Below, piece after piece: positions 57,765-59,113 of a stretch of 64,000 bases of DNA; position 1 is the stretch's first letter; each line of letters opens with the position of its first letter. Position numbers and translations under genes: made by a program. Location: positions 682,001 to 746,000 of the forward strand of contig NZ_CP019285.1 in the NCBI RefSeq assembly GCF_000226975.2, read 5' to 3'. Source of the stretch: Halobiforma lacisalsi AJ5 (GTDB taxonomy: Archaea > Halobacteriota > Halobacteria > Halobacteriales > Natrialbaceae). Under the pieces are notes generated by a model. The model did no database searches. It saw nothing but the letters and a program-made list of their open reading frames with translations, and was not told the DNA's origin.

Positions 57765-58175
57765 TCATCCCTCGAAGCGGACCTCGATCTGTGGAAGTAC
57801 AACCTGCCAGTAGTAGAGGACATACAGTACAGTGATAGCGAGGTACCCCCCGACTGTGGGGAGTAGTGACCAGCCTGCGACGGCAACCAGATACACGACG
57901 AGGAAGCCAGTGACGAGAATCCCTTCCAGCAGGACGATATCCAGGCCTGCCTTCGTTCGTACTTGCAAGTCACTTCCCGTGATGAGTCGCAGCCCGATCA
58001 TCCCAACAGTAAGTGTAGCCCACGTGAGCACGGGGAGCCCGAAGACTGTCAGAGCCGTGGCATCCAACCACGCTACCGCCGAAATCACGAGTGGCCATCC
58101 GACAATTCCGAGGCCGATCCATGCAATACCTCGCAACAACTCCTCGCGGATGATGCGTCGTAGTTGTGGGTTCAT
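57765..58175 (-). CDS. Four-helix membrane protein, paralogue of the HTH-membrane protein opposite
   Basis: A 136-residue protein with four hydrophobic helices and no soluble domain. It aligns along its whole length with the membrane half of the divergent gene at 58376-59113: both have 'REELLR.IAW', 'GLPVLTWA.LT.GMIG.RL', 'TG.DLQV' and a final 'VLP' after a long helix. The ATG at 58173-58175 begins at the aligned start ('MNPQLRRIIREELL'). I do not recognise a named family. Pairing with its HTH-bearing paralogue suggests a sensor or partner role. Confidence 0.75.
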   Translation of the reverse strand: MNPQLRRIIREELLRGIAWIGLGIVGWPLVISAVAWLDATALTVFGLPVLTWATLTVGMIGLRLITGSDLQVRTKAGLDIVLLEGILVTGFLVVYLVAVAGWSLLPTVGGYLAITVLYVLYYWQVVLPQIEVRFEG

Positions 58176-58222
58176 ATCTGCAGGTGCGGCAAGGATTTCT
58201 GCTGATAAAGCACCGGTGAGAA

Positions 58223-58278
58223 TTTTGCGGCCGGATAGTAGCGTTTTGTAGCCGCAAAACCGACTTTGCGTCCGCAAA
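58223..58278. promoter_or_regulatory. Cluster of TTTTGCGG/CCGCAAAA operator-like sites
   Basis: The 200-bp divergent gap holds three related sites: TTTTGCGG (58223-58230), a palindrome GTTTTG-TAGCCG-CAAAAC (58243-58260) and TTTGCG-TC-CGCAAA (58265-58278). They are spaced about 20 bp apart, two helix turns, on one DNA face. They lie between the two related membrane-protein genes, one of which carries an HTH domain, so autoregulation is the simplest reading. Confidence 0.6.
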
Positions 58279-58375
58279 ATCCGGAACTGAAGACACCTCT
58301 CCGGCTACCCCGTTACACTAGCGGAAATTCTACAGTCGAAACGTCCATACTCCTTCAGCGATTCGTGACGAATAG

Positions 58376-59113
58376 ATGTCACTCCCTCCATGGATCTCCG
58401 AGGAATTGCCGGAAGACAGGAGGGTGAATACGAAACTCACAGAACGGCACGTCATCGAGACGATGCACCAGTCCGATCGGCCGTTCTTTTCACTACAGCA
58501 GATCGCACAGCAGGTCAAACCGGACGTCTCGAAGGTCACCGTCCGCAACCGGCTGAACGAACTGGAAAACCGTGGGATCGTTGCAACGGAAACTGTTGCC
58601 GACGCGACACTGTATTACATCAATTATCCGGAGTCAGAGTGGCCACTCTCACCGGAGGGAAAACGAGCGCTGAACGACGAGTCGGCCGGAACGGAGAATC
58701 CGCTCCGGGAGTTCCTACACCATCCGCGACTCCACTCGATCGTACGTGAGGAGTTGTTGCGGAGCATTGCGTGGGCCGCGTTCGGGTTGTTCGGTTGGGC
58801 AATACTCGTTAGCTCGTCCGAGGGGTTGCAATCAACCGTCTGGACGGCAGTTGGGCTCCCAGTCCTCACGTGGGCGTCTCTCACGGGCGGAATGATCGGA
58901 ATTCGGCTGACGACTGGTACCGACCTGCAGGTTCAGTCCAGGGAGGGACTACACGTCGTTTCGCTGGGTGGCGTCGTGTTAGGTGGGTTCTGGGCTGCGT
59001 TTTTGATTTTCGTGCTGGGCTGGCACCCCCTGCTCACCGGTGGACTGTACCTGTTCGTCACGGTCACTTATCTCGTCTTTTACAGACGGGTGATCCTTCC
59101 CCGGTTTACCTAA
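58376..59113 (+). CDS. Membrane-anchored winged-HTH regulator
   Basis: A 245-residue protein in two parts. Residues ~20-100 are a winged HTH ('TERHVIETMHQSDRPFFSLQ', 'QIAQQVKPDVSKVTVRNRLN', 'ELENRGIVATETVADATLYY'). Residues ~120-245 form four hydrophobic helices ('SIAWAAFGLFGWAILVSS', 'TAVGLPVLTWASLTGGMIGI', 'HVVSLGGVVLGGFWAAFLIF', 'TGGLYLFVTVTYLVFYRRV'). This is a one-component regulator tied to the membrane. The membrane half is paralogous to the divergent gene at 57765-58175. The signal is unknown; membrane state or a partner through the shared helices is possible. Confidence 0.85.
   Translation: MSLPPWISEELPEDRRVNTKLTERHVIETMHQSDRPFFSLQQIAQQVKPDVSKVTVRNRLNELENRGIVATETVADATLYYINYPESEWPLSPEGKRALNDESAGTENPLREFLHHPRLHSIVREELLRSIAWAAFGLFGWAILVSSSEGLQSTVWTAVGLPVLTWASLTGGMIGIRLTTGTDLQVQSREGLHVVSLGGVVLGGFWAAFLIFVLGWHPLLTGGLYLFVTVTYLVFYRRVILPRFT

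Follow-up and report, generated by a model that had tools for sequence, protein, structure and literature searches.

To our knowledge, few transcriptional activators are known in the archaea. In bacteria, ToxR and CadC are membrane-tethered winged-HTH regulators, and ToxR is modulated by ToxS, a small membrane partner encoded beside it; ToxS is co-transcribed with ToxR and is no paralogue of the ToxR anchor, and the architecture in these systems is a single membrane span with a large outer domain. In the SdpR/SdpI system of Bacillus subtilis, a small polytopic membrane protein binds the winged-HTH regulator in a feedback loop, and this regulator, SdpR, is soluble and represses. The only membrane-bound archaeal activators that we found described in the literature are from Sulfolobus: ArnR and ArnR1 of Sulfolobus acidocaldarius are membrane-bound one-component regulators of the archaellum and act as HTH activators (PMC6396743). 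The ArnR boxes are two inverted repeats located at -43 to -84, just upstream of BRE/TATA, and both are needed for binding (PMC6396743).

The window, that is the whole stretch of 64,000 nucleotides that was analysed, is part of a 4.38-Mb haloarchaeal genome (labelled G000) and contains a pair of genes that we compare here with these systems. The genes and the parts of them that are discussed below are:

57765..58175, minus strand: 4TM partner gene (P0001), encoding a 136-aa four-helix membrane protein, with its ATG start at 58175
58376..59113, plus strand: regulator gene (P0002), encoding a 245-aa protein made of a winged HTH (residues ~20-85), a linker and a C-terminal four-helix membrane domain
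58718..59110, plus strand: residues 115-245 of the regulator, its membrane domain, a paralogue of the 136-aa protein according to BLASTP and to its clade
58535..58537, plus strand: Val54 codon; the residue lies in the segment SKVTVRNRL, where the recognition helix begins, and is a candidate for setting specificity, as residue 54 (V/A/E) tracks a base of the operator half-site (T/C/G)

A longer ORF of the 4TM partner gene, starting with TTG, was rejected: it would run through the operator array and its start is not conserved.

Using BLASTP, 130 of the 136 partner residues could be aligned without gaps to residues 115-244 of the regulator (49% identity, 71% positives, E 8e-42), and the genome has no further copy of the membrane domain. 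The AF2 model of the partner has four helices (3-33, 41-66, 75-98 and 104-135; mean pLDDT 77), and that of the regulator, which is of low confidence (mean pLDDT 57; ~65-76 over the wHTH), shows H23-32, H40-47, H53-65, E69-74 and E77-82 in winged-helix order, then four long helices. A reading made from the letters of the DNA, hereafter the sequence-only reading, had proposed that the 136-aa protein is a paralogue of the membrane half of the 245-aa protein and that the two have matching four-helix membrane domains, one of them with a winged HTH; the alignment confirms the former and the alignment and models agree on the latter. Both genes are under purifying selection (dN/dS 0.11-0.27) and have a G+C content of 57-58%, as against 66% for the window. 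In the congener Halobiforma haloterrestris (G081, L138), the proteins are 95% and 89% identical to those of the window. Neither protein scores above any curated cut-off of Pfam or NCBIfam, the plasmid homologues are annotated as "hypothetical protein", the fold search with the 4TM model gave no match in the PDB and nothing significant in BFVD, and there are no sequence relatives worth naming in the PDB. A match to the Pfam family PHO4 (E 0.017) was far under the cut-off and was discarded.

We searched for HTH-4TM genes in 125 genomes of the family, in 392 genomes of the order and in a collection of named genomes, and found 13 distinct ones in haloarchaea, in the numbered genomes G000, G081, G290, G066, G018, G130, G146 and G382 and in named loci of Halorubrum sp. 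Hd13 (L139), Hrr. ezzemoulense (L141), Halorientalis marina (L140), Halorientalis pallida (L142) and Halocatena marina (L143). All 13 are adjoined by a 4TM partner gene, which encodes exactly 136 aa in every case, and at all 13 loci a three-site array lies 13-14 nt before the TATA box of the partner, degraded yet recognisable in two Halorubrum loci. The case that the sequence-only reading had named as speaking against it, an HTH gene without the partner or without the sites, was looked for and no such HTH-4TM gene was found, so that its compact two-gene circuit with conserved sites holds throughout this set. Its choice of a divergent pair as the type form does not: only three loci are divergent (G000, G081 and G290), the other ten being tandem with the partner first.

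A stand-alone 4TM gene is found in 15 named loci (L144-L158), none of which has an HTH-4TM gene or an array. At L058:7015-7422, L059:7035-7442 and L064:6949-7278, a stand-alone 4TM gene occupies a conserved spot between the phosphoglucose isomerase gene and a divergent DUF5812 gene, the copy in G073 (L064) being broken into two frames. Two 189-aa members of the 4TM family (L061:7035-7604 and L063:6234-6800) have two extra N-terminal helices and thus a six-helix form. The existence of 4TM proteins without a regulator in many haloarchaea implies that the domain has a function of its own, and the N-terminal half of the partner is strongly conserved between loci (70-79%, versus 25-46% for the C-terminal half); both points would suit a 4TM protein that is itself the working part, for example a small transporter, a channel or an immunity-type protein, with a regulator whose anchor is alike through common descent and which detects the same ligand without pairing. 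We consider this explanation somewhat unlikely, since the fused form always comes with a partner of constant length (13 of 13), which suggests that both are needed together, and the discarded PHO4 match is no evidence for transport.

The octamer TTTTGCGG is found at 58223-58230 (plus strand), 58252-58259 (minus strand) and 58272-58279 (minus strand). Three copies were also reached in 8 of 100 shuffles of the window, though not clustered, and the triple is by itself weak evidence; the significance rests in the palindrome to which the octamers belong. They are halves of 14-16 bp sites, two of which are full palindromes (TTTGYRNNYRCAAA), the third having only its promoter-side half conserved. The three sites about 20 bp apart of the sequence-only reading are therefore correct as regards the octamers, but the true units are these longer palindromes. 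TTTGN6CAAA occurs twice in the window, for 0.07 copies expected, and TTTGYRNNYRCAAA has just two perfect matches across the 4.38-Mb genome, both at the locus and 20 bp apart; in other genomes, the perfect matches that lie at the HTH-4TM locus are 2 of 2 in G081, 1 of 1 in G066 and 2 of 4 in G018. As for a wider regulon, operators with one mismatch elsewhere in G000 are not in excess (14, versus 20 for the reversed control pattern). The elements of the two promoters are:

58264..58279, minus strand: operator site 1 (distal), TTTTGCGGACGCAAAG; TTTG....CAAA is invariant in the eight-locus footprint and the site is a perfect genome-wide match
58244..58259, minus strand: operator site 2, TTTTGCGGCTACAAAA, 20 bp from site 1; TTT-N8-AAA is invariant and the site is a perfect genome-wide match
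58223..58238, minus strand: operator site 3 (proximal), CTATCCGGCCGCAAAA; only the CAAAA half beside the promoter is conserved, being invariant in eight aligned loci
58205..58209, minus strand: TATA element of the 4TM gene (TTTAT), which follows site 3 after 13-14 nt and is conserved in the aligned loci
58337..58350, plus strand: separate leaderless promoter of the regulator gene, with the BRE CGAAAC and a TATA-like TCCATAC, overlapped by no operator site

Sites 1, 2 and 3 are spaced by 20-21 bp. In the eight aligned loci, TTTG/CAAA of site 1, TTT/AAA of site 2, CAAAA of site 3 and the TATA core TTAT are invariant, and the DNA upstream varies. The array spans ~-99 to -43 of the 4TM gene, with the TATA element at ~-27 and a transcription start predicted a few nt ahead of the ATG. 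The BRE of this promoter is without the usual AA, whereas that of the regulator promoter has the adenines; CCGAAAC..TCCATAT stands just 5' of the regulator ATG in most paired loci, including tandem ones. The sequence-only reading took the operators to be shared by the two genes. At each of the ten tandem loci, however, the 4TM gene is the only one with the array in front of it, and the HTH gene has a leaderless promoter of its own that lacks sites; judged by this arrangement, the sites belong to the promoter of the 136-aa gene.

The HTH domain of the regulator is that of a larger haloarchaeal family, so far unannotated, whose members have two C-terminal helices and which we define here as HTH-2TM; 97 of the 392 order genomes were matched, HTH-2TM genes forming part of these matches. 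The HTH-2TM domain is ~41-62% identical to that of the regulator, which shares the family hallmarks, an LPPWI start and an S[KR]xTVRNRL recognition segment. In HTH-2TM genes, the gene's own TATA box is preceded by one or two palindromes of the same type, whose centre is 20 bp upstream of TTTA, and the regulator too is accompanied by the TTTxGCGG palindrome by which the family is recognised, centred ~20 bp upstream of a TATA box, but at the promoter of the partner. A named example is E6P09_RS19425 on the plasmid pHME132 of Haloferax mediterranei, where an operator-like repeat was read. Several HTH-2TM genes are directly followed by a gene encoding a DUF4870 membrane protein, suggesting a general link between tethered HTH-2TM regulators and small membrane proteins; the DUF4870 gene comes within ~60 bp in L174, L175, L178, L181, L185 and L186 (Haloferax mediterranei pHME132 124455-125939).

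Upstream of many HTH-2TM genes of genus g16 lies an HTH-2TM paralogue that is split behind residue 37 by a +1 frameshift, in each case at TTY-TTT-CTC-GG. This was read base by base in seven species (L033 in G052, from nt 759; L191 in G060, L192 in G061, L193 in G062, L195 in G066, L196 in G076 and L197 in G073) and by match coordinates only in three more. There is constraint on both sides of the shift (pN/pS 0.30-0.66), and slippage from UUU to UUC would agree with programmed +1 frameshifting, a rare event in archaea as far as we know; alternatively, the paralogue may carry an inherited disruption.

At sites 1 and 2, the base x of the half-site TTTxGCGG is T in 51 of 52 half-sites when residue 54 is Val, C in 34 of 38 when it is Ala and G in 30 of 34 when it is Glu, residue 54 being located at the start of the predicted recognition helix (53-65). 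This correlation spans three clades, hence few independent changes, and is suggestive; it links the regulator with the array of the window, the putative DNA target that the regulator very probably binds.

We propose that the two genes form a self-contained regulatory cassette in which a membrane-tethered regulator drives its own paralogue, a reading that, taken as a whole, we find rather more convincing than not. It draws on paralogy, linkage in every case found, conservation of the array, the TATA register, genome-wide uniqueness and the residue-base correlation, all of them read from sequence. The regulator would be made from its own promoter, at a level that we infer to be low and constitutive, and would sit in the membrane, where its signal might, at a guess, be a cue carried by the membrane itself (the state of lipids, voltage or salt, for example). 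A regulator dimer would then bind the palindromes TTTTGCGG-CCGCAAAA and, as the array lies just upstream of a BRE without the usual AA, would most likely recruit TBP/TFB and turn the 4TM gene on. The 4TM product would be the output of the cassette.

Archaeal motifs that lie upstream of BRE/TATA go with activation, and those that lie downstream go with repression (PMC4158304). The position of the array upstream of BRE/TATA, the example of the ArnR boxes and the lack of adenines in the partner BRE all favour activation by the tethered dimer, and the 4TM gene is probably activated rather than repressed. The same parts could work with the opposite sign, the regulator repressing the 4TM gene via the array until a membrane signal or the 4TM protein releases it: repression commonly involves three close-set operators, the half-site nearest the promoter is close enough to the TATA element (13-14 nt) that it could hinder TFB, and in archaea a repressor could also act from a position upstream of the TATA box. 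Nevertheless, in every locus the sites are upstream of BRE/TATA and never over the TATA element or the start site, which is an activation-type layout (PMC4158304, PMC6396743), and the BRE adenines present at the regulator promoter are missing from the 4TM promoter, as expected if the latter is activator-dependent; we thus regard repression as unlikely.

Under activation, the 4TM product could also pair with the regulator and tune it by heteromeric feedback, a suggestion from paralogy and constant linkage that we make with reserve. The divergence of the C-terminal half of the partner weakens the claim of full four-helix co-assembly, and, the outer half of site 3 being lost in most loci, this site may not be a normal dimer site. 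Two further ideas, which taken jointly are rather speculative, are that the activator has as its only target a copy of its own membrane domain, so that mixed pairs with the 4TM protein would dilute the active dimers and the 4TM protein would set its own level, and that, across the wider regulator family, a simple recognition code has arisen by co-evolution of residue 54 with a single base pair (x of TTTxGCGG) in each half-site.

According to the tree, the 13 regulator membrane domains form one clade (support 100/99), for which a single fusion event suffices; the partners fall into two further groups, one with those of the ten tandem loci and one with those of the three divergent loci, and for the divergent ones an old exchange with the membrane domain of the regulator itself is possible. 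Since the wider HTH-2TM family has the same HTH and palindromes, the HTH-4TM protein would be best seen as the HTH of this family joined to a duplicated 4TM domain. Compared with the tandem partners of G066, G130, G382, G146 and G018, partners from divergent loci are 74-79% identical over the first 35 residues and ~25% identical over the last 30.

The distribution of the cassette is patchy (8 of the 392 order genomes), and in the Halocatena, Halorientalis and Halorubrum hosts it is located on megaplasmids. Between G000 and G290, which are from different families, the cassette is 80% identical, compared with 63-65% for DNA ligase. No conserved cargo gene was found around it, neighbours being common only to close relatives, and no relatives of the cassette were found in viral contigs and phage records. 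In an empty-site comparison with the congeners G080 and G082, the downstream gene is kept, a carotenoid-oxygenase-like gene is absent from the stretches read and no clean insertion junction was readable. The cassette behaves as a transferable, self-contained unit. Its patchiness, low G+C, megaplasmid hosts and closer likeness between families than that of a housekeeping gene might recall a selfish element, with the cassette as a plasmid-borne addiction or exclusion module, but this is very improbable given that it has no toxin-like partner and no relatives in the viral contigs and phage records, and that stand-alone 4TM relatives are chromosomal, between the phosphoglucose isomerase and DUF5812 genes.

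As a compact, exportable two-gene unit with a defined putative operator and a single evident target, the cassette has a wider interest, the HTH-2TM family extending to a plasmid of Haloferax mediterranei, where one member neighbours a DUF4870 gene. The correspondence between residue and base makes the DNA specificity of archaeal winged helices testable by single substitutions (V54A and V54E; TTTTGCGG, TTTCGCGG and TTTGGCGG palindromes), and feedback through membrane heteromers could be studied in a simple form with the two matching membrane domains.

We found no description in the literature of a cassette made of an HTH-4TM protein and a 4TM partner. Unlike in ToxR/ToxS, the partner is a paralogue of the regulator's own membrane domain, and unlike in SdpR/SdpI, the regulator has a membrane domain itself and is paralogous to the membrane protein of the pair. 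With the HTH-2TM family the regulator has in common the HTH, the type of palindrome and its distance to TATA, a membrane anchor and a linked gene for a small membrane protein; it differs by an anchor of four helices homologous to the 4TM family instead of two, whereas HTH-2TM operators precede the regulator's own gene and the linked protein there, DUF4870, is no paralogue. ArnR and ArnR1, which are further characterised by transcriptional activation and by phosphorylation by ArnC, are likewise archaeal, have an N-terminal HTH and a C-terminal membrane anchor, form a paralogous pair and use inverted-repeat boxes directly upstream of the BRE/TATA of their target. The sequence of the boxes differs (TTTTGCGG-CCGCAAAA here, TCGAC-N5-GTCGA for ArnR), both ArnR paralogues carry an HTH whereas the partner here has none, and the ArnR targets are archaellum and pili genes whereas the 4TM paralogue is the only evident target here. 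ArnR also has a putative HAMP and a sensory domain, in place of which the regulator has a short linker (residues ~86-114) with no Pfam match, and it is therefore not filed as ArnR; the likeness is one of architecture and site layout, and we claim no sequence relation. The statement of the sequence-only reading that no system of this form has been described is too strong, ArnR and ArnR1 being membrane-bound HTH activators that act on paired inverted repeats upstream of BRE/TATA (PMC6396743). The cassette is real, conserved and unannotated, and is a new form of membrane-bound one-component regulation rather than a categorically new kind.
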